From Ianthella basta (taxonomy: Eukaryota > Porifera > Demospongiae > Verongiida > Ianthellidae): 64,000 nucleotides of DNA. The stretch covers positions 3,216,813-3,280,812 of the forward strand of contig OZ025880.1 in NCBI GenBank assembly GCA_964019415.1, given 5' to 3'. Below are positions 602-22,000 of this stretch, piece after piece; positions within the stretch are counted from its first letter, which is position 1, and each line of letters starts with the position of its first letter. Both the position numbers and the translations under genes were made by a program. Under the pieces are notes generated by a model. It saw only the letters and a list, made by a program, of their open reading frames with translations. It was not told the DNA's origin and ran no database searches.

Positions 602-3600
602 GTCAGGACTGCTCCTCCTTCACTGACTGTCGCTCCTGCATTCAGTCACCCTTGCAGTGCCAGTGGTGTGCCCAGCCAGTGAGGACTGACTTGCCTTAAC
701 ATATGTAGTGCTTGTGTACACATAAGCCAATCAAATGGTGCTTATGAGGTACAAATTGAAAATTAATGTTTGGATTGCATTTGGATTGTTTTGTTTCATT
801 ATGTCTGTCATATGCAAGTATACGCAGGGGCCGGGTCCATAGCAGTAGTCTAGAACCTCCATTACATGCCACCAAATTATATACGTAATATATTATAGCC
901 TGTGGGTTGTGTCTATCCCTACACCAGCAATGCCTCTTTGAGAGCTGCTGCATGCAGCACACTACAGACAAACTTGACTAGAAGAGAGGCACCCTGCCTG
1001 GTGTACACTATAGCTATACATTAGAACTAGAGTAATTGCGTAGCGTCTTGCAACAGACATGCATACATTGTTTATATACCTACGGACTGCCAATATACTA
1101 GAATTTTTAGTGAATAATGGTATAGAATTCAAGCCTATTACATAATATTGTAAGGAATAATTATTCATACTCTAGATCTGTGTCATATCATCACATACAT
1201 CACCATCATTTGCACGAGTGCTTTCTTGTACCATTCACTGAAGGCTGTCAAACATCTGGGACTGCTGTGAGCTTGGCTAGACTCTACTTTATAGTTATAT
1301 TATGGCTGCGAGGGCGTTAAATTAGATTAATGCCCAAGCATGCCAAATATAACTGGCTTGTGTTTTCGAACAAGAATGGTTTGAATCGTCCAACGAATCA
1401 AGCTACAAGTAATCATGTATAGCCATTCAGGTTTTCATACAGTGGTATTATAAATACTACAGAGTTTGAGATGTACACAAGCTTCAAGCCTCTACTATAC
1501 ACAGGCTCTAACTATTCAAAGGCTGCACACATGCGCGTGTTGTTTGGGCCTGTTGCTGTGATTATTGTATTAATTGCATTGATTGTGTATTTGGTGTAGT
1601 ATAATAGTTGTGAAATTGAGTAAAATTCATGGCATTCACATTTACATGGCTCCCAATTCATACAAGTCTGAATGCTAGCACAGTGAATCATGTTAATTCA
1701 ACTATGGTTTAACTCGAACACTGCGCTTAATTGAGCTATGTTCGATGTCCCTGGACAACGCTATATATAGTATAGAAAAGCCTCTTGTTACTTTGGACGT
1801 CAATCACGTTAACTGGCCCAGGGACACTTTTAGAGGAATATTGCTGAAATGTACATTTACCAACAACAAAAGTACTAAAGAGTCAATAAATCATAGCTCC
1901 ATCATTTCTAGCACCCTTTGTAGCCTTTCTCAGTAGGAAAGCACGAGTGCCACTGAACCACAGGGAACTTACTTGAAGGGTACTTGAATAGCCACTGATG
2001 AGATGATTACATATCAATTACATATACTTTCTTGGGAAACTGTCATTTTGATGACACCATAATGTGTGCCATACATACTCTACTAAGTAATTTTTTTTGC
2101 TAAACAATTTCTGTACTAAATTTTAATAAAGAAGTAAATTACATTACACCGGTCAATACAGCTACTGGCACCAGTGGAACTAAATAATTATTTTATAATA
2201 CTTTCATTAGCTGGAACTCCCAGTAACTGGAACTTTTCATAAGGTCTCCTGGAGGTTCCAGTTAATGAGGTTCCACTGTATATAATAACTGTGTTGACAT
2301 ACATTTACTTTCCTCTCAGAATATCTTTGGGCGGTGCAATAATGAAGTCAATTCCAGTTGTGAGGCTGAGTTTGTTCAGGACCCCATTGGCAACCAAACT
2401 GTCCTGAGGGTGAGCTGCCACAGTAGCTTCAAGTGCCTCTACCGTACATACCTATAGGCCATCTGCCATCTTATCAATGTCTCACTGTTTGCAATTGCGC
2501 GTTCACCTCTTTCAACCACGCAGTCATCTTTCATGAGCTATGCCCAAAACAGTACTAAATCCTGACCCACTTTTAAATTCACTCACTCCCTCTCATTTGC
2601 CCACACCTTCCTCCTCTTCCACTCAGAATGACTCACTGAGTGATGATGTACAGATAACTCCACAAGCTGTGTCACTCAAAGTCAGACCAGGTGTGTTAAG
2701 GCTTAGGGTACACTACTCTTGACTGACACCTGACACATGGCCTGTAGTAGTGTAAGCATGTTGTACAGTGTTTCAATTATTATGTTACTTCTAAACTGGC
2801 AAATGTAATATTCCTGTAGGTTGACAACCAAATAATATATTACTTGGCAATATTATCTTCATAATATAGTACATTACAAATACCAGCTACTGAAATTGCT
2901 GCAAACCATTCGTTGTAACCATTTGTTGTACACTGTACTTATTATTATTGGAAATAAATATTTCTTGTCTTTTCCAGCACTTTCAATGCCTGCAGTACTT
3001 AATCAAGTTAACGTATGCAAATGGAAAATGAATATCTTTACCCATTTTCCCCTATAGGCCATCCTCAGTCTGTCCCCATCACTGTGAGACCTGCAGCTGT
3101 CTTTCCTCTTGATGTGTACTTTCTGATGGACTTCTCCAACTCCATGAATGATGACTTGGCAACACTTCAGTCAATTGCAGGAAATATTGGTATGTGTGTT
3201 GGTTTTGAAGAGCTACACAATAGCTTTAAAATTCTGGAATATTAAATGTGTCCGTCTAATTCTGATTGGTCTAAAGACTATATTCTACCGAACACTGATC
3301 AGATCACTTGTGCAACCATAACTTCATGAGTCAACCTTTAAACAGATTATTTTATATCACCTCTGGTGAAGGCAACTGGTTAACAGACCAATCAAGGTGT
3401 AACAAGTGATGTGGCTCACGGAACTGTGTAGGAACACTGATGTAGAAAGTTATTTTCCAACATATAACTATTCTGTGTCTTCTTGCAGCCCATAACATCA
3501 GTAGCATCACTACCAACTATACCTTGGGTTTTGGTTCATTTGTGGACAAGCTAACATCACCTTACATCGATGTCAAACCAGATAGGTAAGTAAGGATTGT

Positions 3601-6600
3601 AGTGACTGTGAACTGATTGGTGTATGTAATGGATAACTGTGTTCATCTCATCTCCTCCCACTAGACTGATTAACCCTTGTGAATTAGCTCAAAACTGTGA
3701 GGCACCTTATAGCTACAGACATTTTCTCTCTCTCACAAGTGACTCAGTTGCATTCACTGTTAGTGAGGCATGCAGTTGTATCATGTTGTGGTTACTTGTA
3801 ATGTGACTATAAAGTACATGGAAGTGCGCATGCATTTCTGTGCATCAGTAGTGCATGGTTTGATACAATCCAATGTTCAGAGTGCTGTGAACAGTCGGAG
3901 AATTTCTGGTAACCTTGATGCACCAGAAGGTGGAATGGATGGATTGCTGCAGGCTGTGGTTTGTCAAGATGTGGGTCACTGTCTAATGTGTACAAACGTA
4001 TTCTTATCGTTTAAACCTCATACCTTCTATGCCACAGATCATTGGTTGGAGACCAAACCCTGCTAGACGTCTGCTGGTGTACATGTCAGATGCTGTCTTC
4101 CACTTTGGAGGAGATGGCAAAGTCAGTTTACTAGTACCACTGTAATGCTGAGAGATTACATGGTGTGTATCATCTGCTGTCTCTTGTGCACTGCAGATTG
4201 GTGGTGCTGTCACTCCACATGATGGTCAGTGCCACCTTCGTAATACTACCAAGGGTAATGAAACATTCTACGAGTATGATAACTTGAGATTGGTGAGAGA
4301 ACATTTCCAATTTTCAGGGCAGAACTGACAAGAGCCAATATAGTGCACGTCAGACACTGCCAACATGCAATTGGCAGCATTTGAGTTGCAACATGCAATT
4401 TTAAGTTGTCCATGCATACACATAGAGTATTTTGTAGTTTGCGAGTGTTGTGAAAAGATGATGTTTACGTGTGTGCATTTGCCATGCTTAGTATTTATAG
4501 CCCAAATTGACTGACCTAGCTGCAGCTCAGTATCATTCCTGGTATGTTGTGGAACTATGTCACAGGACTATCCATCGGTGGCAATGATCAAAAGCCTGCT
4601 CCTTGAGAAGGGGATCTCCCCAATCTTTCTGGTGACATCCAAATTCCTTGACGTTTACAACGTAAGAGTTACTTGTAACTTGTACATCACATGCACATTG
4701 TACAGTGCATATCAGAGTGAGTTAGGGGAAATTATAATAGCGAATGTGTTAGTCACACATGTGCCTGACCCCCTGCAGGGATCTTATGCAATGATACCAT
4801 ATCATTGCTTAAGCTGACTTGCTTCCAAGACCAGAGCCTTCATGGCCAATTAGATTGGGCATTTACTATAATCATAGTGTTATTCTAAAAGAAAGTTTAG
4901 CTCAAATTTTAGAGACAAGTGTTGGCTCGGTCATATAATATTATTCAACACTTGCAAATTTGAAAACAGAGCAAGCGTTAGCCATACAAGCAGTCTGAGA
5001 GCAAAATACGAATTCAGACACTCCATATACTTTCACTTTGCTTGCCTCACTATCACACTATGGCAACATCATGCAAGAGTTAACAGCAAATGAAATACGT
5101 ACAATTACATTCCTATTGCACAGGTCAGCTTATGCAATGCTACCAGACCCTTGCAGGGGGTCTGGTGAGTGAGACTATGTATGCATTTGGTTCATCTGAA
5201 ATTGTAATACCCATTTCTCTCCACATTGTTTGCAGCTAACACAGACTGCCTTCGACAATGCTGTTGTGGAACGACTGGATGCAAACTCAGAAAATTTAAT
5301 CAATGCATTGACAAAAGGCTATAATGTGAGTCTTCTTCTGTACATCTTCTTCCTCGATCCATGGTGTGGTGTAGGGTGTTTGTCACTAGAAATGTTGTAA
5401 ATTGATGATTACTACGTAGATTCACTGTATTTACATTCTGTGTCCAAGTTGATGTGTATTCGTGTCTGCTGTGATGAACATAACCATACATGTCCATCAC
5501 ATGCGTTGTGTCTGCTGCTGTAGGAGCTTGTATCCAATGTGAGGCTCACTGCTGAGAGTGTTCCTGGCTTGGAGGTCTCATTCAGTGCTGACTGTGGTGC
5601 ACTTGCCACTGCTGATGTCACTGGCCATGGAGGCTGTGCTGGTGTGACTATTGGCAGTGAGGTATGGTGTATTCCTACATGAAGATGTGCCATACATGTA
5701 GCTGTGGAGCTGTATACTTGCTGCCCTACAATCCCTCCAACCTTGGCAGGTCACTATCACAGCTACTGTTTCAGTGACTGAGTGCACAGAAAGACTGATC
5801 AATGGCACTAGGTCAGGACCACCCTGCCTGGCATACTGTAGCTAGTCTCCTGAGCGAAGTGCAGAGTCACAGCAATACAATTTCTTTACATTTATGATTC
5901 TTGCAGAATAAAAATCTCATCTGCTCTGTTTGGTGAGGTCACTGTTGATGTTCAGGGTGTGTGCTCCTGTGATTGTGAAATGGATAGGGTAAGCTCTTGC
6001 AGCAAACCATCACATGGTGCTTATGTCTAAGCAGTCTGTGCAGTCTTACATTCAGTCTTTCGCCATGCACTAAGCCTTGCTTGCATTCAACAGATGGTGA
6101 ATAACTCCTACTGTTCCAACCAAGGAGACCTTGTGTGTGGTCTCTGTGACTGTGAAGAAGGAAGGTTTGTATATACTGCTGCAAGTTGCATGCAGTGGAT
6201 TTGTTGATGAATAAAATTGATGCATGTGCATGACTCGTGCTGTACCCCACAGGATTGGTGGCCAGTGCGAATGCAACATTGGCAGCTCTGGGTCTACATC
6301 ACTCATGTGTCCGTATGTGCAACTGTACCACTGCACAACATGCTACATCTCAGATATAACAAGTCTTCACTTGCCCTCTATCTATACTCCTTTGCAGTAA
6401 TGGCCCCAATGGCAAAATGTGTTCAGGCCCTAATGCAGGGAAGTGTGTGTGTGGACAGTGCAGGTGTAGACAGGATGTCAACCCACAGGTCAGACTCATT
6501 CCTCGAGTTTATGTAACAACATTGATCCAGCAAGTTAACTCTAGCTAGCTCTTGTGTACATACAGTAAATATAATGATGGCACGTATTATACAAAAGTTA

Positions 6601-9600
6601 CTCAACACATAATCATCTTATCTTTTATCTCTGCTTTTTGTGCAGCTTCAAATTGTGTTAGTTTAGCATTCACAACTTTTGCCCATCATCGATTACTGTC
6701 ATTGTGCTCACCCTTTCTACCAAATAGTCATATTTACTATTGCAGTATATACCTCTTATTTTCTTTTCCTGTTGAGTGCAGATTCCTGGATCAAGGTATT
6801 TTGGTAAAATGTGTGAGTGCAATAATTTCCGGTGTGATGTTGACACCAGGGGACGTCTTTGCAGTGGTAAGTGAAGAATGATTCAAAGCAAGCTGCTCAG
6901 TTCTACGTACATTAACAATACATGCTGTGTACATATTACATACGTTTAAGTATGGTGTTAATCTAGGTGACATGCTATTATATATTTTAATCAGCTCAAG
7001 GTCATGCTTGATGCTTAGAGGACAAGGGGTGAGCAAGGCTTATAGGCTAGCATTCACTCAAGCATGACATGTGCAGTCACTGTCATTAGCGTACACTACC
7101 ATGACTACTTGCACTGGTGTGCCCCTTTTGTCTTTGAGCCCAGCATAAGGCAATGCTACATTGTGGAAGGTGTTTTCTGTTGTATAACATGGTCTGTGGA
7201 TGATCGAGTCTGTTTTGTGTGACAAAGAAAAATGCATTTTGTACCGACATACTGATAGGCACTTACTTTGGAAGTGGCTTTGACACAGCAAACCTACGTA
7301 CATGCACCCTGTAGCTAGGCATCCAAATTATAATCTCTTCTTTGCCTTCTCCCTGGTCATCAGTGCAATATCTTCAAGGTAAGGCATATCTTAAATTATA
7401 GGATGGATGTATCACTTAGGTCATCACCCTATTTCCTTAAGTTCTCCTGAACACTGCCTCAATAGATGTATCCTGATGAGATGTGAAGTGATAAGGCATG
7501 TATTTCATGGATAAACCCAATTGTGTCTAGTATGAAATCAAAATAGTTTAAGTGGTTTGTACCACGTAAACTGTATTCTCCTGCAGTGTATTGTGAATGT
7601 GTGATGATATATAATATAGTGGATCCATGCGTTTGGATGCATATGTGAAGGGTACATGTAGTAGTGTATAATATTAAAAGAATTGTGATTTAAAAAGCAA
7701 TCAGTAGTTCAGTGCAGAACCACTCTCTTGTTTAGGGAATGGAGTGTGTGGCTGCAATGGGAACTGCACTTGTAATAAAGGATTCTCTGGGGACATCTGT
7801 GAGTGCAGACCCAATGAAGAGTGCAGGAACCCAGTAGGGGGAGAGGTGAGTGAGCTGTACACGAGGTCACTTCAGAATATGTTAAACGTATTCACTACAT
7901 TGTTACTGATTTTCATTTGGCATGCATATACATAGGGGAACTGGAGTAGGAGAACCCTGGAGGCATAATTTTTAACCGGGGTCCTCCTCCTGTTGAACTT
8001 GGACTGTTGCCTTCACCTTACTTCCTTTGTCCAGTACCCTTGACTTGATGCAGTATTACATTTTTCTCATGTTGCATATTATTTTGCATGTGTCAGTCCA
8101 CACAATCACCCTTTATGCTCCCATATGCACATCCCCATAATATCTTGGCACTGTTTCATTCAATCTGCATGATGTCTGACCAAGGCTTACTTAAACACCT
8201 TATCAGTTGTACATACGTTCTGAATAATTGATCTTTTGCTGTAATACGTCACCTGCTGAACGTTTTCCCATTTGGAGCTTACTGTACATGGTTTATTTGT
8301 TCATCCACTGCAGCTTTGCTCCGGAGTTGGCAAGTGTACATGTGGTAGGTGTACATGTGATGAAGGCTATGGTAGGATCTACTGTGACTTTTGCACTAAT
8401 GCAGAGGTAATGAGATTACTTCACTGCAAGTATATTAAATAAAAGTATATATTATACTACTGCCCATTTTAGTGGGCTACGATGGAGAAGAGCCAAGGCC
8501 CATTGAAACTAATCAACTCATCTTATGTATGTGTAAAGGTGTGTACCTCCACTGTAGATTGTAAATGTGTTGTCCAACTGGTCTTGCACAAATCAGTAAC
8601 CATCTCATTAGGGTCAGTAGGGCTTAGTGAAACAGTCTAGAATATAGGATTGCTTGGATGCCAGGGACAACAGAGCTGGTGTTTTGACTCTAGGCCATCA
8701 AACAATGGCTACCACTCTCAGACGTATGCTATTCACATCATTCTGCAATCCCAATGTTGTGTACAAATCAAACATACTGTAAACCTACAAACTGCAATAA
8801 TATGGGTTTATCAAATGAGCCTTAGTGTCTTGAATGTTTATGGGAGCAATGATTCTGTTTCCTGGCATAACCCATTCAGGTAGCAGACATTGCATATTAT
8901 AGTAGAACCTATTTGTACTGTAAGTCAGTCTACAGCTACAGCAGCACAGTGATAACTCGTAATAGGTAAATGGTGTGAACACTGTATTGTATACAATGAC
9001 CTTGTTTATTATTTGCTGACTCCATCAGTACATAGTGGATGCTTGCGTCCATAGGGTTAATGTTACATTCACATGCAGTCTGCTCATAACAACAGTGGCT
9101 CTGATGTTAAGCAGTTCTTGTGACCTAAACTGTACTATAAGTTTGGCCTACACAGGAAATCCCTCAGTTGCACTCGGTTGATGCTGGCATAATTATAATG
9201 ACATTAAGTGGCAGGGCAGAAGCATGACAATGTCTGATTGATAATTCTCTTGTGTTGTGATGTTGTACTGACTTGGGGTTATGTGCCGGAATACTGATAC
9301 TGATACTACATGCACTGGCTTTTGAGCGAGGTAACATATATAGCAACTGGAATGCTTGATCAAACCTTCCAGTTGCTATGTTATCCCAATTGAAATTTGG
9401 CACATGCACCCAACAGCACTCTTGCATTGTGTATGTTTAAGAATGAATTATACTCAACTTCGCACTTCTTGTATATATGTGTATACCACACAATATCTTG
9501 TGTCTCCTTTCACTGTATTTTATATTGTCAACTTACCTTAGCACATGATGTCCACACAACTTGCCTAAATTCCTGCCTTCCTGTTTGTATAGGCATGTAT

Positions 9601-10389
9601 TTCAAAGCAGCCTTCAGCTCCTCCCATTCCATCATGGCAGATTGCTGTCCCTATTGTTGTTGGGCTCCTTACCCTTATTCTAGGGTTCCTCATCATCATC
9701 CTTGTCAAGGTCATCCTTCTCCTACTGGTAAGGCACACATCTCACTAAACCATTTCATTGCAGATCTACTAGCAGTTCTTTGTATACCATGAGAGACATC
9801 ACACAATGCAGTAAATGTAATCCTCTTCTCTTTTCATGTGTGCATACAGGACCATTACTGCTATGATGAGTTCAAAGACAGGCACAGCAGTGCTCACTCC
9901 CAGCTGGAAGATGTAGAGCTGGAATCAAACCCAGCCTATGGGGAGGTGCCACAACCCTCACCCCCAGCCGATCTAGAACATGAGTATGAGGAGTATGAAG
10001 GTAGCACAACTGACATTGTTGTCCAAAATGAACAGAATAGTTTCCACTCGCAGATTGAAGATGTAGAGCTGGAGCCAAACCCAGCCTATAAGGAGGTGCC
10101 ACAACATTTACCCACAGCAGATCTAGGAAGTGAGTATGTGGAGTGTGGAGGGAGCACAACTGACAATGATGATGCTGCCAGAAATGAGCAGAGTGGTGTC
10201 CACTCCCAGTTTGAGGATGTACAACTAGAACTCAACCCAGCCTATGGAATGGTGCTACAATCTGCACCCTCAGCAGATCTAGAGCCACAATATGTGGAGT
10301 GTGGTGGAAGTGCAACTGATCCCTCTTACCAGTCGGTTGCACGTGGCATGCAGACTGCAGCCCAGATGGAAGAGGAGGATTATATATAA
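602..10389 (+). CDS. Integrin beta subunit, locus A (5' end outside window; NPAY-repeat tail, no beta-tail domain)
   Basis: Cell-surface adhesion receptor subunit that would pair with an integrin alpha chain. Exons: 602-678, 2320-2409, 2627-2690, 3058-3189, 3489-3585, 3665-3758, 3881-3970, 4038-4121, 4197-4292, 4566-4661, 5236-5325, 5524-5661, 5750-5811, 5907-5988, 6094-6164, 6253-6312, 6398-6488, 6782-6866, 7736-7845, 8314-8406, 9593-9727, 9850-10389. All phases agree. Order: PSI (DCSSFTDC...WCAQP), hybrid, beta-I with MIDAS DFSNS, metal-site loop NLDAPEGG and specificity loop CELAQNC, hybrid, four I-EGF modules, TM, tail. With a 64-nt signal exon like the other copies it would be about 846 aa. 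The signal exon lies upstream; 1-601 is intron 1. The beta-tail exon found in B-E is absent: the I-EGF4 exon (phase 0) joins the TM exon in frame. The membrane-proximal DHYCYDEFKD resembles the family DRxEYxxF motif and is followed by three NPAY repeats. Confidence 0.88.
1678..2281. mobile_element. Insertion in intron 2 of locus A, pogo/Tigger-like end
   Basis: The C intron runs directly from GAATGCTAGTATATAATAAC, whereas A has about 600 extra bases here. The right end reads, on the minus strand, ACAGTGGAACCTCATTAAC, like the CAGTGGAACC ends of pogo/Tigger-type DNA transposons. The left end (ACAGTGAATCATGTTAATTC) is only partly complementary. No transposase is visible, so it would be a non-autonomous copy. 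Confidence 0.4.
4767..5162. mobile_element. MITE-like element in locus A intron
   Basis: Starts GACCCCCTGCAGGG and ends with the near inverse, CCCTTGCAGGGGGTC. Inside each end is a second inverted match around CTTATGCAATG. About 396 bp, AT-rich, no coding potential. The same element sits at the same intron in C (24549-24958) and, interrupted, in D (35936 to about 37553), but not in E. It therefore entered before the A/C/D duplications. Confidence 0.6.
9850..10389 (+). other. Terminal exon of locus A: cytoplasmic tail with three NPAY repeats
   Basis: This single exon encodes 179 residues and a TAA stop, against 45-60 tail residues in the sibling genes. After the membrane-proximal segment come three imperfect repeats starting at 9895, 10045 and 10201 (150, 156 and about 150 bp). 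Each reads HSQ-x-EDV-x-LE-x-NPAY ... ADL ... Y(E/V)E(Y/C)xGSxTD. NPAY falls at 9928-9939, 10078-10089 and 10234-10245. NPxY in integrin tails is a PTB-domain docking site (talin, kindlin, Shc-like adaptors). The repeats end in DPSYQSVA, which resembles the ADNPLYQSA of the other copies with the Asn lost. The repeats are followed by an acidic end, EEEDYI. Confidence 0.85.
9895..10350 (+). repeat. In-frame tandem repeat, 3 units of about 150 bp
   Basis: Three direct repeats start at 9895, 10045 and 10201, all in the reading frame of the locus A tail. Units differ at many third and some first codon positions, so the duplication is not brand new, but the NPAY core and the flanking EDV and LE residues are kept in all three. 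Confidence 0.85.
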
Positions 10390-11185: not shown

Positions 11186-11693
11186 GTGTTGTTCTGACAA
11201 ACTTACACTCTGTACTCTACCCTCCAACCCAAGCAGCAGAAATGAAGGCCACTGTCACCAGAAAAGATTCACCTGTTTTGGGTACCAAATTGCCAGTGGA
11301 ATAGTGAGTACTGTGCATCATGTATATAGAGTATACAGCACATCAGTGCAGCAAAGAGTACTTGTTACACTAGTTCAATGTATAATTATGCACATGCATG
11401 AAGACTCCATGTCAATCCTCATGCCAATAGTTGCACCATTAATGTACACTGCAATGTGTCTGATTACCATTCAATCACAATTTGTAGGAGTTTCTACTTT
11501 CTAAGTCAGTCATCCATCATGACCTGTCTTGCCGAAACATCTTGGTGGGAGATAATGAGCTATTGAAGATATGTGACTTTGGACTGGCCAAGGAGACCTT
11601 GGAGTATGCATCTGCTCTGAAGACTAGACTGCCCATTCGCTGGATGGCACCAGAAACACTCCTCAGAGGAGAGTTCACTGAAAAGTCAGATGT
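11186..11693 (+). pseudogene. Tyrosine kinase catalytic-domain fragment (two exons)
   Basis: Two exons of a protein tyrosine kinase. Exon 1 (about 11186-11303; start uncertain, acceptor ACACAG) ends in the helix-E motif YQIASGI before donor GTGAGT. Exon 2 (11488-11693) reads EFLLSKSVIHHDL...CRNIL, then KICDFGLAKE, then LPIRWMAPETLL and EKSDV, and stops at donor GTAAGT in phase 2. Catalytic-loop Asp, Asn, DFG and the APE motif are present. The usual HRD Arg is His. IRWMAPE is typical of tyrosine rather than Ser/Thr kinases. No N-lobe (glycine loop, VAIK Lys) was found upstream and no WSFGV-type exon downstream to 12680, so this is probably a fragment. It lies 0.8 kb after the stop of locus A on the same strand. 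Could be a transcribed remnant with distant exons. Confidence 0.72.
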
Positions 11694-12680
11694 GTAAGTA
11701 TGCCACTCAGTAAAGCACTGCCAGTGTACCAAAGAGTTGTATCCAGTATTATATGTAGTGAATTAGTGCATTACTGTTATCTACGTATCTAGATACATAT
11801 ATCATGATGTTATGATTAGTTCATGTTAATGTTCATTCTTAATCACTTAATTGATCTTATTTAATGTGGGGAGCCTTTAGCCAGAAGGCTACTCTTCCAG
11901 GCACCCACATTTAATACATTCAAAGTACAAACAACACAGACAGACAGACACACATACAGTAAATCAGTTTGTTATATGTTCAGTGGGGCTGCTTGTTGTC
12001 GGGGAACGTACTTCTTGGTTTTACGATTGGAGCATTGTAGACTGCAAGGTATATAGGTAATGAACATTATCAGCTTGAGGCAATTCAGGTATCAATAACA
12101 GAAATTACAGTCACCTGTGCAGAAGCCTTTAATTTGTTGCAATAACGATAACAATACAACAAGGATTCTAATAGCAAGGAGTCAATTCAGACAACTAGTT
12201 CTAAAAATCTACCATTAAAGCACGGAGCACATCAATGCTGGGTCTGCTCCATGCATCCTGGAGATCAGCACACCTCGCTCCAGTTAGTACAAATGGCAGT
12301 CGTTAGAATAATAAGAAATTTATTACCAGATGGAACAGGATCCCGACACTGATCACATAAGTGGGCCAGTGAAACACTGGCTGCAGAAAATTATAATTAT
12401 TCCATGTGGTCAAATGCCCCATATATATGTATGTTATATAGTATATTGACATCACAACATAATTGAACAGAAATATGAATTCAATTGCAAAACAGCATGT
12501 CTAACACTTGTGCAGCACTTCTTGCCTGAGCAGGATATTGAATATTGTACGTATACATATATATATTGATGGCTCTGACGTTGCCACTACATGCAGTGAT
12601 TGTATACAAACACGGACGTTTTTAGATTTCTTTCTGGCCACTCTGCTCTGTAGTCTTAGTTCTAGATTCCTCAATCAATC
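11694..12680. other. Spacer between kinase fragment and locus B
   Basis: No kinase C-lobe exon, RNA gene or element with clear ends was seen. A short ACAGACAGACAGACA tract is at about 11936-11950. Confidence 0.4.
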
Positions 12681-13301
12681 ATGTATCATACCACAGCTCT
12701 GATGTGTGCCGTACTGGTACTGGGATGTGTCTACTATACCAGAGGTGAGTGGGAAACCAACAGTTTACTGTAAATCTTTTGGCGGGAACTACAGCTGCAG
12801 GCCATCACTTTCAAACAGCACTCTACAAGTGATCGCTTACACTTCAGCAAGAGTTAGGCCAGGTCTATAGGGGAGTCATGTCAGCTGCTACCTTCATCAG
12901 TACGTGACAACAGTAACGGATGCTGACTGCCTCATAGCAAGGTCAGTATATAATAATAGTATGCAACATTGTCTCTGCATTGACAATGATTTTAAACATA
13001 ATGCTGAATGTAGAGCTAGCATGACTAAGCTGGCTAGATTAATCAGTAGGACTGGGTGTTGTTCTTTACCTAAACAGAAATCAATCAGTGTGTCAAATGT
13101 TAACATTAAATTATGAACAATAAATATATCAAAGGCCCCCTAAGCCCACGGAGGAGATGAAAATGCAGTCGAAAGTCCCCCCAGTCCAAGTCCATGGATC
13201 TGAGGTGTAGATTAATTCTTTCATCAGCCTGCTCTAGGCCACTGCCTGCTATGTCTGTGCTGCATGGTGTGGTGTACTCCTTAATCTACATCCACTGTAA
13301 G

Positions 13302-13378
13302 TCAGGACTGCTCCTCCTTCACTGACTGTCGCTCCTGCATCCAGTCACCCTTGCTATATAAGTCAGTGGTGTGCTAGA
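13302..13378 (+). pseudogene. Degenerate PSI exon of locus B
   Basis: The sequence matches the PSI exons at 602, 21144, 32522, 45412 and 59472 nearly base for base. A G-to-A change moves the acceptor AG one base downstream, and a +1 indel lies near 13355. Read from the shifted acceptor the exon stays open and leaves in the normal phase, but about 20 codons are out of frame. Most PSI cysteines are therefore lost, and only WCA near the end is restored. Confidence 0.75.
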
Positions 13379-13701
13379 GTGAGGACTGCAAACACATGTT
13401 CTTTGGTTTTGGACACTTCATGACTAATATATACATATTAATGTAATTTATTATTCAGACACTAATGATATGATTTAGCACACTTTGAACAATTCGTATG
13501 CATTCACATCTGTGCTCTTAGGTCAGTAAATAGTAGAATGGTCATGCAGTGAGTGTATATATTATGTAGATACCATCATTAAATTTTGCATTAAGCAGGG
13601 TAAAATTATTGTGTTGGCACAAAAGACAATAACAGCAGCATATCCATGACATTGTTTTGTACCTATAGCACACCATGGAACAGCTGAATTATTCCATTTT
13701 A

Positions 13702-13927
13702 AGAGTCATTAACTTTCATATGTTCTTAGGTATACATGCATGGGGAAGCCATCTCACCTCTCATTCCTATGTAGGGATGGTGTGCAGGTTGTTTGGTGTT
13801 CACAATGCATTTTCAGAGTCATTAACTTTTATATGTATTCTGTTAGGTATACAGGCGTGGAGAAGCCATCTCTCCTCTCATTCCTAAGTAGGGATGGTGC
13901 AGGTTGTTTGGTGTACATAATGCATTG
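13702..13927 (+). repeat. Tandem duplication, 2 x 113 bp
   Basis: Two copies starting AGAGTCATTAACTTT at 13702 and 13815, each continuing through GGTATACA, GAAGCCATCTC and TAGGGATGGTG to GTTTGGTGT. Within the gap of locus B where hybrid, beta-I and EGF exons would be expected. Confidence 0.7.
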
Positions 13928-15018
13928 GTATAGAAATAAATCCTCCAAACTGCAATTTTGTAGGATAGACGATTAAATCGTTACCATTTGGCATGAAGGT
14001 TAATAGCTACATACGTGTGAATGATTGCTCTACAATGCATTTGCTATTTATGCACTACATCAGTAGCTTTCTAAAATGGTGCCCCGGCCATCCCACCTGT
14101 GTCTGGAGATTGTGTACCCCTTACTGGGCTGTAGGGTGGGTTCCAGCCAACCCAGTATTGCCAGACCACTTTTTGCTGGTTAATAAATTCTGCTGAAGCT
14201 ATGATTAACTGAAGTACTTGGATTAATGTTTACTCGTACAGTTCCTAAGTTGTAACATTTAAACTACACACCTTTAATATCTGCTTGGTGCAACAATTTG
14301 CCTTCCACAATTTAAATAGCAGTGGTAGACATTGCAATGTATAGTCATCATGTACCAGTTCAAAATGTCCACCCATGGTCACAGCATTTCCTAATGACAC
14401 TTTCTGTGCACATAGCAGTAGCTACATGTAAATTATCATTGCCAAGCAGATGTGCATGGACACATGCAGCTGTACAACCTCAGTTGCCTTACAACAAGAT
14501 GTTCCTATACTTAAGCTTATCAGCCAGCCACTGCTAAGTTTCCACCATACGTCTCTGGGGACAAAGTGGTAAATTGCTCCTTCCAATGTCAATGTTTTCT
14601 TGCTGGCCATTCTTGCCCAATGGTGAAAGTCAAGATGATACTTACCATCACACATGTTTGATGGTACAGATCTCTGGCAATATGAATAAGAATCTTATTT
14701 GTTCTGGGCAAGATCTTTAGACAGAAGACTAATCAATGGCCATGACTGAACTGTGACCAATCTGTACTGATTTTGTGCTCTTACATCATCATACTTGTGC
14801 TCGCCTTGATAGAGTGTTAATAAATCTGGTCAGTGCACAACAGCCAATGTATCAATCACAGTACTAGTTGTGAGTTCCATGCAGATCTTCTAGACGAATA
14901 TGCTCCTATATTGTCACTCAGGCCATAAGAATATCCTAATATATGTTATCTTGTATACTTGTCTTGCACACTGTCGAGGCCTAAATGCTGAACACCTTCC
15001 TTTCTTCCCTGTTCACAG

Positions 15019-15283
15019 ACATGTGGTCCAGACCAGTGTAGTCGATACACTAACTGCACCACCTGCTTGTATAGAATTGTGGATGGTGTGTTCCAGGAGA
15101 CAGGGGAGGAGAGCTGTCAGTCCATCTGTGATGCTGTCAATGCCACTGTCATGGCTGATGCCATTAATGAGCCTAGTAATCCCCGTCTGGATGGGACCTT
15201 CACATGCACTACTGCTGTGGTGGGTGGGCAATGCAGTGGAATTGCATTCTATGTGAAGCCCAACACAGATGGATTAGTGGCAA
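15019..15283 (+). other. Beta-tail domain exon of locus B
   Basis: Opens with [16 protein letters not shown] and continues through [17 protein letters not shown] to [12 protein letters not shown], as in C, D and E. The start is fixed by the CACAG acceptor at 15018. The donor is probably GTGAAT at 15284, aligned with GTGAGT in E; reading past it hits a TAA at 15307. The end is 21 nt shorter than the siblings but in the same phase. Confidence 0.75.
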
Positions 15284-16130
15284 GTGAATGCACAGCCAGC
15301 AATGTGTAAAGCAAGAAAGCTCACAATGCTTTGTGGCCAGTAGTTGCCATCTACCCAACTGTAATTGCACTACACTGGATTCAATGTTTGCAGTGCAAGT
15401 GCCTACAGCAGATGCAGGATGTGCAGTATACATATATTGCATTATCAAGCAATGCTAGGAGGCTAATCTACTCCACCTCATGCAGCAATTAGAACACCCT
15501 TTTCCATTTCTTTTGCTGGTTGCCCAATTCCTTTTCTGCTACCTCTGCATGGTAGATTGCAGTACCTATTGTTGTGGGGTTGCTTATTGGGGGATTGCTC
15601 ATCATCACCATGATTGTCAAACTCTTAATATTTCTAAAGGTTAGGCCTACACTTCACATAGTTACATACAAGTCAGCGACCTCCAGATCTATATCGCCAC
15701 TAGTCACTGCCAACAGCCTTTGATCTATTCTCTCCTTAAAGTACCATCTTTCTTAGCACTTTGAATAATGCCACTGATTAGTCAGTGGCTGGTACATGTG
15801 TTTCCAAAGGAGGCTCTGAATAAAGCCCACCCACATCAGCACATAGGAGGGAATGGGAATCAGTGGCCATTAGCACATATGGTTCAGCTTCTAAAGGGTC
15901 AGCTATAGATCTGAAGGTCACTGGCACTGGTCCACTACGCTGCCATTCACCCCCTCCCCCTCCCTTTCCTACCATATGTGTTTTGTTCACAACCATGTCT
16001 TTCATTTGCATAGCCATGTTACATACACCATCAGGCTTACATTAAAGTATATGTTACGTGCATACCTCTATACATAGTAGAATTCATTACACATTCTAAT
16101 CATGCCCTTATTCTTTGTGTCTGCATCCAG

Positions 16131-16686
16131 GATCGTCACGAGTATCATACATTCAAGAAGGAGGTTGCAGAAAGTCAATTTGGTGCTGTGAGTACAGGTC
16201 CACTGCATAGGCTCATGTTAACCGATTGCTCTCTCTGGTTTGAGCAATTATAACTCATACAAAATGCTCTGAACACAGTACACAGGCCATTATTCATAGC
16301 AGTTATAGCACACTCTAATGCAAAATAATTGCTTGATAATATGTTCTACAATTTGTAAGAATCATAACCGAATGTTATTAATGTGCAATGAGTGCATGGA
16401 AGTAATATAACGTTGTGTAACTATATAGCTATCTTCTTCATCCTCCTCCAGTTAATGCATTTAATTACTTATCCCTCCCTACTACTACTACTACAATATT
16501 ATTCCTAAAGGTTCAGCCTGTACCTTACAGTGTCATTCATATGCAAGCTATATATACGTATATATAGTGTACTACATGTTTTCCAATTCTGTCCATAGCA
16601 CTTAGTATCCTTATTCCTTGTGTATACAGGATCGTCAGGAGTATCAAAAGTTCAATAAGGAAGTTAAACAAATTCAATGTACTCCT
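16131..16686 (+). other. Two successive membrane-proximal tail exons in locus B
   Basis: Exon 16131-16187 encodes DRHEYHTFKKEVAESQFGA, close to the E version. Exon 16630-16686 encodes [19 protein letters not shown], close to C and D. Both are 57 nt, phase 0 at both ends, with intact CAG acceptors and GTGAGT donors. From about 16505 onward the intron sequence matches the C/D intron after the TM exon. The pair therefore marks a recombination joint between an E-type and a C/D-type gene. Confidence 0.7.
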
Positions 16687-17258
16687 GTGAGTAAACAGTG
16701 GTATCTTGAAACTATGCTCTTGATAGCACAGTGATCCAATAGACTGGGTAAATGAAGGCTGAGATGCGATTGAACTTGCTGACTCATGCAATCTGCCCCA
16801 GAACATAGTCACAACCTGTTATGTCTACAGCCATTCTAGCAGACTCTCTAATGCTATAGATGTGACTAATGAACACCTGTAACACATCCATTAGCAAGAA
16901 CCACTTTGAATAAAGACTGCTCTACATTAATAGCCATATGTCACTGGTGTGAATTGTAAACAGGTATAGCTGTGCAGTGAATAAAGTTATAGGAAAGTTG
17001 TGGAAGATCTACAGGACCTGCACCTTCATACATAACCATATCAGTGATTTGTATAATTGATCATCATTGTGGGAACAGACAAGCAATCCAGTCCACGATG
17101 ACTCTTGATGAAGATAATCCCTTACTACCTGTAAGTGATCACCACTCTCACTGTAGCTATCCTCCTACCCTGTGTAGGCTGACAACCCTCTGTATCAGAG
17201 TGCTAATCAAGAGTTCCAGAATCCTACATTTCAGGAGGAAATTAAGACTGATATTTAG

Positions 17259-19044: not shown

Positions 19045-22000
19045 ATGAACAACGGCAAAGAGTTCATTTGTGTCTTCCTAGTGCTCGGATGTCTCTACTA
19101 TACTAGAGGTGGGTGCGGAGTGTACGTGCATTGTGACTAGTAGTGAGTTTCCAGTGGTGTTTGATTGCTCGTTACGGACGTATATACTGCCACTTCTGAC
19201 GAACTGCTGGACGGCTCGGCCGGCAGTTGTCGTCTCTCTGTGAGAGAAGTCACTGTGTGATGTACGTAGTTATTATTGGCAGATTTACAGACTACAAGTA
19301 CTTTGGGTGTGTAATGAATGAACATTTCGATACATGGGGCGAAATTGTGAGTAGTAGTTGTGAGACCAGTTGCGACCGAAGGCCACAACCTCAATCAACG
19401 ACCGTCAGGTGCGTATTTGTGCAAACCTTTCAGCCGAGCCATCTAAATGGGAATTTTCGGCACGAAGCGCTCGAAGCTGCCGGTGCAACACCTTTATGCC
19501 TATCAGACAGCACGGTAGTGCTGTCTATGTAGGGATGGCAGTGGTTGTTTGTATGCTGTAATACAAACAAAAAGTCGCGCTACTCCTGAACAGGACCGAA
19601 AACTGACAAACGAAGCTTACCATGACGAAGCGGGGACTAAACAGTGCGCACAACTAACCTTACTTCCCAGCGAAAGTGCGCCTACATGTAGAGAGCACCC
19701 TCGACATTACCCACGTTTCGTCTTCTTCTTCTTCTTCTCTGACAGCTGTAGCGCACAAACCATAGGGGCCAGGAGGATACTTCTTGCACCATATTGCATC
19801 AGATTTGGCTGGCTGCATTCCTTTGTAGATTAGAAGGCGGCGCGAGTTAGTGCGGAAGACGGCGCTTGCCACGACTCCTGCCGTGTTGCTGGCTTGGCCA
19901 AGCGGGACGGACGTCATTTTCAAATTATGTAATTAAACCGGATAAAACCGGAGTGACTGGTGCCATTGTTAGCGAGCAGTTAGCTTGCGCGCCGTTTGAA
20001 GGACTTTCGCGGTCGTGCATTCCCCGCTACGGTTGGCTTCCGGTCGCCGTTTCTCGCTGGGCTATTAGCGTGGAACCTAGGTGCTAGCCCACATCTTGAG
20101 CTCCAGGATTACAGAAATGAGGTATAATGCCTGCACCAATGCCCTATGGTTGAGACTAAGTCTGTTGCTTCAGCTTAGCTGCCCACTATAAAAAGTACAG
20201 AAACTAGAAATAATAAAAATTTTCTACAAAAATTGTAAGGATGTAGGGATGGCATAAAAAGGACAGAAACAAGTAAAGGCTGTTACACAGTGGAGCATTA
20301 ACCATTGTCCCTACATTCAAGAGCATAGGACTAAAAGGTACAACATTCTTGCATGTAGGGACCATGGTTGATGCTCCACTGTGTAACAGCCTTTACTTGC
20401 TTCTGTCCTTTTTATGCCATCCGCAACTGGTCTATTGATTGGCCGCACAGGCCCTATCTAATGCATTGCTCTGGTCCGATCTTACACGGCCCATTTAGAT
20501 AGCAAGTGAGAGCTGTTGGACAACGTACAGATGGATATTGGGGGCTGGGTGCATGATTGTAGAAACGCATTGCTGCCAAACGTGAATCATTTAAGAAGTC
20601 GTTGAGCTTCAGGGTGTGTACTAGCAGAGTCCATGCTTATGGATACACATATGGTGCATGCGAGGTATGCAGGTGTGAAGGCAGTCACTTTGGCTGCGGC
20701 ATATGCAGTTGCAAGCAGCGAGCAACTTTCTGGGGTGGACAGATTGCATCCAGTAGTGGAACTTGAGAATGAGATGAGTTTGCGTGATGTTTTTGTGGAA
20801 GCGAAAAGCCTTGAGAGCTACTGGAGAGCTGAACAGTGTTTTCAACTCTCCGCAACTTACATTTCCAGATACAGTATTAGCAGATGTTGCTACTGTGCAT
20901 TAGAGGCATGCACTAATTTGCTTGATTGATGGCTTGTTGGTTCAATCTCTGTGACTTGTAGGTAGTGGGTAATAGGTTTAAACCTTAACTTAGTTCTTCT
21001 TTTCACCACACCTTAGAGGACTGTTGGAGCTATGAATTGGATATCATACATTTACCATATATGGAGATTATGAAATGATTCCTTATAAACCTTTGTGTAC
21101 ATGTGTACTGCATGCATGATGTACGAACATTCATCCACTGTAGGTCAGGACTGCTCCTCCTTCACTGACTGTCGCTCCTGCATCCAGTCACCCTTGCAGT
21201 GCCAGTGGTGTGCCAAGCCAGTGAGGACTGACTTGCCTTCACATGTGCTTGCATGCACATAAGCCAAACAAATTTATGGTGCTTATAAGTGGGGTACAAA
21301 TTGAAAATGATTGTTTGCATTGCATTTGGATTGTTTTGTTCCATTACATCTGTCTGTCAGCAAGTAAAGCAGAAGGCCAGGTCCATAGCAGTAGTCTAGA
21401 ACCTCATGCATTACATGCAACCAAATTTATTATAATATTATAACCTAGGGTTGTGTCCATCCCTACACCAGTAATGCCTCTTTGACAGCTGGTGCATGCA
21501 GCACACTACAGACATGCTTGACTAGAAGAGGGGCACCCTGCCTAGTGTGACAGTGTACACTACACATTAGAACTAGAACAATTACTTAGCACTGTCTTGC
21601 AACACACATGTATACATTGTATACCTACTGACTGCTGGTATACTAGGATTATTAGTGAATGATGAAATATGGAATTCAAGCCTATCAAATCTCATTGTAA
21701 TGAATAATTTCTCATATTCTTTATTATAATTATCATCACCTGTCACAATCATTTGCATGAGTGTTTTCTTGTACCATTCACTGAAGGCTGCCAAACATCT
21801 GGGACCATTGTGAGCGTAGCTAGTGTGAACTGATCTGTGATCTATACATATTAAAATCATGTATAGCCATTCAGGTTTCTATATATACTGCAGAGTTTGA
21901 GATGTACACAAGCTTCAAGCTTCTACTACACACACGCTCTAACTATTCACAGGCTGCACACATGTGTCAGTTGTTTGGTCCCATTACTCTGACTGTTGTA

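Follow-up and report, generated by a model that had tools for sequence, protein, structure and literature searches.

A sponge integrin-beta gene with tandem NPAY tail units related to the cytoplasmic tails of an Ig/FN3-type receptor family

Results

An integrin-beta gene ending in a repeat-bearing tail exon

The window, i.e., the whole 64,000-nucleotide stretch of Ianthella basta DNA analyzed here, sits inside an integrin-beta cluster, and its locus A was modeled as a signal exon followed by 22 exons (602 to 10389; Table 1). The signal-peptide exon falls outside the window, its ATG at C13:3216115 (C13 being the contig of the window) lying 698 bp upstream of the window start, and the 846-amino-acid model contains no stop and no frameshift, with GT-AG introns and all splice sites intact. 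In an 858-amino-acid version of the model, Pfam matches were obtained for the beta-I (VWA) domain (PF00362, E = 1.4e-79, residues 113-376) and for I-EGF repeats (I-EGF_1, 2.7e-7; EGF_integrin, 2.6e-7), and the PDB entries of integrin beta-2/beta-1 aligned over residues 23-635 at E about 1e-109. The Pfam PSI profile was absent from the Pfam match list of A; the alignment with PDB beta-2 begins in the PSI domain and reaches residue 635. In the protein database, 638 proteins matched the A model at E ≤ 0.001, and the closest among the best 120 of these 638 was Halisarca dujardinii integrin beta 1B (56% identity).

A single transmembrane (TM) helix was judged by eye, and the K-x6-D membrane-proximal spacing is present as KVILLLLD across the join of exons 22 and 23. 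The TM exon is 96% identical in DNA to that of a paralogue, P, and 90% to that of a further copy, C4. The assignment of locus A to the integrin betas in a preliminary description of this DNA is thus borne out by the PF00362 and I-EGF matches and by the PDB homology: judged by ectodomain and TM helix, A is predicted to encode an integrin-beta subunit, though one without a beta-tail domain.

Table 1 Features of locus A (positions in the window)
Feature	Position	Strand	Description
Ectodomain, exons 2-21	602..8406	+	PSI, beta-I/VWA with DxSxS MIDAS (DFSNS), hybrid, I-EGF repeats
Exon 21, I-EGF4	8314..8406	+	31 residues; spliced straight to TM exon, no beta-tail-domain exon between
Exon 22, stalk and transmembrane helix	9593..9727	+	ACISKQPSAPPIPSWQIAVP...KVILLLL; phase 0 at both ends
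Exon 23, entire cytoplasmic tail	9850..10389	+	179 aa + TAA; no Pfam match
Tail head	9850..9894	+	15 residues, outside repeat; DHYCYDEFKDRHSSA
Unit 1	9895..10044	+	50 aa; HSQLEDVELESNPAYGEV...YEEYEG
Unit 2	10045..10200	+	52 aa; HSQIEDVELEPNPAYKEV...YVECGG
Unit 3	10201..10320	+	40 aa; HSQFEDVQLELNPAYGMV...YVECGGSATD
C-terminal segment	10321..10386	+	PSYQSVARGMQTAAQMEEEDYI

The predicted tail exon translates as 179 open codons up to a TAA at 10387-10389. Its acceptor (atacag/GAC) is in phase 0 and the preceding TM exon ends in the donor CTG/gtaagg; these splice sites, the frame and an equal exon pair at two other loci suggest that the two exons are joined. Open translation and an AG acceptor agree with the earlier reading of 9850-10389 as one cytoplasmic exon of 179 residues, and the splice sites together with the agreement with paralogues led us to reject a frame running through an intron. 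Tandem Repeats Finder detected a period of 150/156 bp within 9895-10319 (2.6-2.8 copies, 77-78% matches), at a score of 443-452 on which chance repeats were rejected. Both this period and the alignment of units confirm that a ~50-residue NPAY unit occurs three times in tandem, and the second Tyr motifs read YEEYEG, YVECGG and YVECGG, as previously given. Across the three units of A and four of P, the pattern S..ED..LE.NPAY..V...Y.E...S.T is invariant. In the 846-residue model the NPAY motifs begin at residues 694, 744 and 796, and the tail contains 11 Tyr, 40 acidic and 5 basic residues.

Locus A is followed closely downstream by a tyrosine-kinase catalytic exon (11488-11697; HHDLSCRNIL...DFGLAK...WMAPE), with 94% copies at C13:4224776, C13:4229669 and C13:3288784, which is apparently a fragment of a very large family. 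A fusion of A with this exon was rejected because the tail already stops at its TAA; furthermore, the genome contains at least 150 matches to the kinase exon, none of them in the 200 kb of C13 that hold P.

Neighboring integrin copies and the missing beta-tail domain

Using exon queries (E ≤ 0.05), we examined 264 kb, made up of C13:3010001-3210000 and the window, and found 12 integrin TM exons. Canonical tail exons follow nine of these and an NPAY tail follows two (A and P), while none was found behind the remaining one (3020374). The canonical neighbors end in NPL(Y/F)...NPx(F/Y)-type motifs, and the short tails with two NP-type Tyr/Phe sites that the preliminary description regarded as ordinary do occur in these copies.

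A beta-tail-domain exon precedes all 10 non-NPAY TM exons but neither of the two NPAY ones. Searches by tblastn with a neighbor's exon failed to find the domain in A, in P or in the retrieved portion of the C4 locus, which likewise has none from I-EGF4 to TM (best E 0.11-0.34, over 12 residues); within A, positions 8407-9592 gave at best E 0.23, again over 12 residues. At all three loci, then, a repeat tail is accompanied by absence of this domain. Searching the TM helix plus tail of A against Pfam returned 0 families at E ≤ 10, compared to a PF08725 match of 2.1e-17 (63 bits) for the control paralogue B, and a genome-wide list of 36 PF08725 matches (E ≤ 1) included none at A or P. The NPLY and NPx(F/Y) sites of the canonical cytoplasmic domain are likewise absent from A. 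On sequence grounds, we place the A tail outside the integrin cytoplasmic-domain family (PF08725).

The window also holds a partial integrin-beta copy, A2 (about 12681-17258), with its own signal exon, a shortened PSI, a beta-tail exon, a TM exon interrupted by an in-frame TAG (between W and IAVP) and canonical tail exons behind; no beta-I or EGF exon query matched inside it. Splicing of A to the canonical tail exons at 16131-17258 was set aside from sequence only, as these exons belong to A2. A palindromic, MITE-like stretch was seen by eye at about 20226-20440. Elsewhere in the genome, C3:10.92-11.03 Mb carries eleven tandem PF08725 matches that are weak, lie under the cut-off (E 0.08-0.24) and are confined to the distal half of the profile. 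They may mark a further array of integrin-like or NxxY-tailed genes, and two PF00362 matches adjoin this stretch at C3:11.036-11.038 Mb.

Related integrin loci and selection on the tail

Searched against its own genome, the A tail gave 52 matches at E ≤ 1, including A itself, P (79%) and the C4 copy (71%). The number of units differs among these integrin loci: A has three, P has four in an open tail of 233 amino acids, and the C4 copy has three. The layout thus recurs outside locus A. Ectodomain exons of P were located in the genome, and P has two I-EGF4 exons. The introns flanking the A and P tails are 88% and 93% identical, and the frames remain open over 540 (A) and 702 nt (P); the 3′ ends of the two genes look like fairly recent copies. 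Unit 1 of the C4 copy reads DPAY and contains an in-frame TAA, and its dN/dS of 0.80-0.85 has intervals that include 1, so this copy is probably broken.

Between A and P, dN/dS was 0.48 for the whole tail (bootstrap 0.31-0.80) and 0.27 for the last unit (0.11-0.68), with a value of 1.4 and a wide interval (0.20-2.53) for the head plus unit 1. Among nine unit-to-unit comparisons, seven gave 0.79-1.56 and two gave 0.36-0.42.

The same tail module in a receptor family

Of the 52 matches to the A tail, 45 lie on C1. An 83-amino-acid receptor tail used as query gave 106 matches at E ≤ 0.1 and 47 at E ≤ 1e-7; the latter comprise two integrin loci (P and C4) and 45 non-integrin ones (43 on C1, one on C27, one on C13). 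Residues 4-79 of this query align with the last unit and C-terminus of A (52%) and of P (56%). Conversely, the best non-integrin matches of an integrin-type unit query were at C27:17150 and C1:1.48-1.51 Mb (53%, E about 1e-10). Profile comparison with hhalign of seven integrin units (from A and P, with C4 left out) to 8 of 20 distinct receptor tails returned a probability of 99.3, 48% identity over 48 columns and E = 2e-20, the latter applying to a single comparison.

Two of the 20 distinct non-integrin tails are shorter or of another form; the other 18 carry a single unit with a second NPxY segment behind it. Their layout is HSQ-x-EDV-x-LEPNPAY ... EPQYEE, the second NPxY segment and a terminal Tyr motif. 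The tail of A shares the NPAY unit with this module, along with collinear second-Tyr and C-terminal segments; its C-terminal segment PSYQSVARGMQTAAQMEEEDYI is collinear with the second NPxY segment of the receptor family (MEENPAYQPV...EPVYL). The same succession of unit, second NPxY segment and terminal Tyr motif is thus seen in A and in the receptor family (C1 0.99-1.85 Mb array; C13:3193312), except that the unit occurs once in the receptor-family tails read, three times in A and four times in P. These alignments lead us to regard the A tail unit as homologous to the receptor-family tail rather than integrin-born.

One of the 18 tails, at C13:3193312, lies inside the integrin cluster, and same-strand exons upstream of it match Ig_3 (9.7e-16) and fn3 (3.4e-6). 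Since Pfam matches at the C1 loci are only weak, their Ig/FN3 label is taken from the resemblance, by eye, of their TM-proximal exons to this C13 gene; the single good Ig match at a C1 locus is downstream of the tail exon. From their sequences, the C1 loci look like they encode single-pass receptors. Receptor-tail array(s) with LExNPAY-type motifs extend on both strands over C1:0.93-1.85 Mb and are a candidate for an expanded recognition-receptor family. At C1:13.87-14.33 Mb and C18:198-205 kb the tail matches are weaker (E 6e-4 to 0.1). A further locus, L050 (C1:8310401-8312100, minus strand), has a 332-amino-acid open frame of nine tandem MEDNP-type units (NPAY in five, NPVY in one, NPAC in three), possibly another receptor tail with multiplied units.

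The fusion point

Over 30 nt of intron and 33 nt of exon at the tail acceptor, A matched five of 10 canonical tail-1 exons at z 6.0-7.1 (0/300 shuffles), three of these five being near-identical copies. The remaining five canonical exons reached z 2.7-5.4, compared with z 1.1-3.2 for four acceptors of the receptor family. When only the 33 nt of exon were used, the two kinds of tail were not told apart (canonical z 0.2-2.8 vs receptor 1.0-3.1). The splice edge of the A head resembles canonical integrin tail exon 1, e.g., DRHEYHTFKKEV.

The acceptor of the tail exon is in phase 0 in A and in canonical integrin tails, but apparently in phase 1 in the receptor loci read, where the likely acceptors lie 23, 20 or 5 nt before the Ser/Ile of SYDD/SYES/IYDS and leave 2 nt of a codon. 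The A tail exon thus lacks the phase-1 acceptor of the receptor module. These different phases do not agree with a simple shuffling of the whole exon and require us to assume a breakpoint within it: the splice edge of A would be the integrin's own, with a receptor tail fused in behind it.

Discussion

We think it likely, with real room for doubt, that locus A is an integrin beta whose tail was swapped for a receptor-type tail and whose tail unit was then duplicated. Its 3′ end would have been remodeled by loss of the beta-tail-domain exon and of the canonical NPLY...NPx(F/Y) tail. The tail exon would be a fusion, in which the acceptor and perhaps the first few codons derive from the integrin's own tail exon, while an expanded family of Ig/FN3-type receptors in this genome would have supplied the remainder from its cytoplasmic tail exon. 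Tandem multiplication of the NPAY-plus-Tyr unit would have followed, giving three copies in A and four in P.

As for signaling, the three NPAY motifs of A all have V at -8, L at -6 and E at -5. Hydrophobic residues at -8/-6 are the ligand pattern of IRS/Dok-type PTB domains, e.g., in the IL-4R, where the IRS-1 PTB domain binds an NPAY that has hydrophobics at these two positions, while Dab/ARH ligands have F at -5 and integrins W at -8. The genome contains 14 PF02174 (IRS-type) and seven PF00640 (PID) exon-wise matches to PTB-type domains, and 150 scored matches among 736 candidates for the tyrosine-kinase exon query. The NPAY context, these PTB domains and the large kinase repertoire favor phosphotyrosine-dependent docking of PTB and SH2 proteins. 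The ectodomain of A would still pair with an alpha subunit and bind ligand, and upon clustering, kinases would phosphorylate the tyrosines of NPAY and YEE/YVEC. The tail could then dock several PTB adaptors, most plausibly IRS/Dok-type given the residues at -8, -6 and -5, along with SH2 proteins at YEEY/YVEC. Ligand binding would thereby feed into the Ig/FN3 receptors' pathway and not into talin/kindlin and actin, and PTB/SH2 adaptor docking is probably common to the A tail and these receptors. A multi-docking tail is the natural reading, and a scaffold for several PTB adaptors the prediction. For the A tail we infer expression, phosphorylation, this choice of adaptors and a loss of talin coupling; loss of the beta-tail domain could impair the receptor.

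Other readings of the locus have to be weighed against this one. The NPAY tail may first have arisen within an integrin beta, or else within an ancestral receptor, and later have passed to the Ig/FN3 family. Both tail types do share a short membrane-proximal (C/S)YD(D/E)xK head, and the exon bases alone favor neither source; however, the module stands at 45 non-integrin places (E ≤ 1e-7) vs three integrin loci, the simpler single-unit form belongs to the receptors (18 of 20 distinct tails), and nine nearby integrin copies have canonical tails. We therefore consider such an origin improbable and infer a transfer from receptor to integrin. We would be similarly surprised if the A tail kept an ordinary integrin job, with NPAY binding talin/kindlin merely in more copies: NPXY/F is the core talin motif (PMC6450878), and A retains a K-x6-D spacing (KVILLLLD) like the KLLxxxxD membrane-proximal motif described in cnidarian integrins (PMC2397394), but PF08725 has no match in the tail, and the residues flanking NPAY are of the receptor-family and not the integrin type.

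Somewhat less remote, though still unlikely, is that A is a decaying gene, i.e., a non-functional relic in a fast-duplicating cluster whose repeats are neutral tandem duplications. The in-frame TAA of the C4 relative and its dN/dS (0.80-0.85, intervals including 1), the neighboring fragment A2 with a stop in its TM exon and the seven of nine unit-to-unit values at 0.79-1.56 would all suit such decay. Yet A runs over 846 codons without stop or frameshift and with every splice site intact, the P tail is open over 233 amino acids, and dN/dS between A and P stays at 0.48 for the whole tail (upper bound 0.80) and 0.27 for the last unit (0.11-0.68).

Canonical integrin beta tails (PF08725; human betas except beta4 and beta8, and copies B, C and D of the window) share with A an ectodomain, a single TM, the K-x6-D spacing and NPxY. 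They differ in length (179 residues in A vs about 45-60, a figure from the preliminary description), and in A three NPAY units with second Tyr motifs are found and the PF08725 match and beta-tail domain are missing. Integrins beta4 and beta8 likewise departed from the canonical tail, and to our knowledge neither has tandem NPxY units. The beta4 tail is described as extraordinarily long (PMC6450878).

A comparable arrangement is seen in a database prediction from another demosponge, Halichondria panicea integrin beta-1-like isoform X1 (P0011), which like A combines a long tail, three N-x-A-Y units (NQAYGQ, NNAYGQ, NMAYEQ; LxSNxAY type) and no PF08725 match. Unlike A, it has no Pro in the motif and another spacing, and the two tails are 26% identical over 97 residues (E 0.009, for a single comparison), a marginal similarity that would fit a parallel or very distant origin. 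A search with the P0011 tail found only itself (270 candidates). Several phosphotyrosine sites for PTB/SH2 adaptors per tail are also a feature of receptors with multiple NPxY or with NPxY plus YxxL (LRP1/megalin, Draper/CED-1/MEGF10) and of the NPxY-bearing IL-4R/insulin receptor; their sequences are, as far as we know, unrelated to that of A.

Residues 640-858 of the 858-residue version, compared to 5.8 billion proteins, yielded 926 candidates but none at E ≤ 1, and the scheme is thus known from one genome only. Neither a tandem-NPxY integrin tail nor this receptor family was found described in the titles and abstract beginnings of the papers listed in our literature searches. The preliminary description knew of no described integrin with this layout. 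Because the P0011 entry with its three NxAY units is comparable in layout, though only marginally similar to A in sequence (E 0.009), we soften "never seen" to the statement that these searches showed no printed description.

Accounts of integrin signaling usually center on two NPxY/F-type sites, to which talin and kindlin bind, and talin binding has been traced to unicellular relatives of animals (PMC6450878). The main interest of locus A is that its tail appears to have been captured from another receptor class. More broadly, and as a suggestion that we hold with less confidence than the swap itself, the phosphotyrosine tail may be a mobile cassette across receptor classes: the output of an Ig/FN3 array, captured by integrins that shed their talin/kindlin sites and beta-tail domain, and tuned by tandem copy number (one unit in receptors, three to four in integrins, nine related units, six with Tyr, in the L050 frame). 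If this reading is true, integrins A and P are adhesion receptors wired into a recognition or immune-type pathway. A tail swap beside canonical-tail paralogues in one cluster would be a natural experiment, in which one ectodomain family has two outputs. It would show that evolution can exchange the entire output of an integrin, and would let the effect of tandem NPxY number be tested directly.
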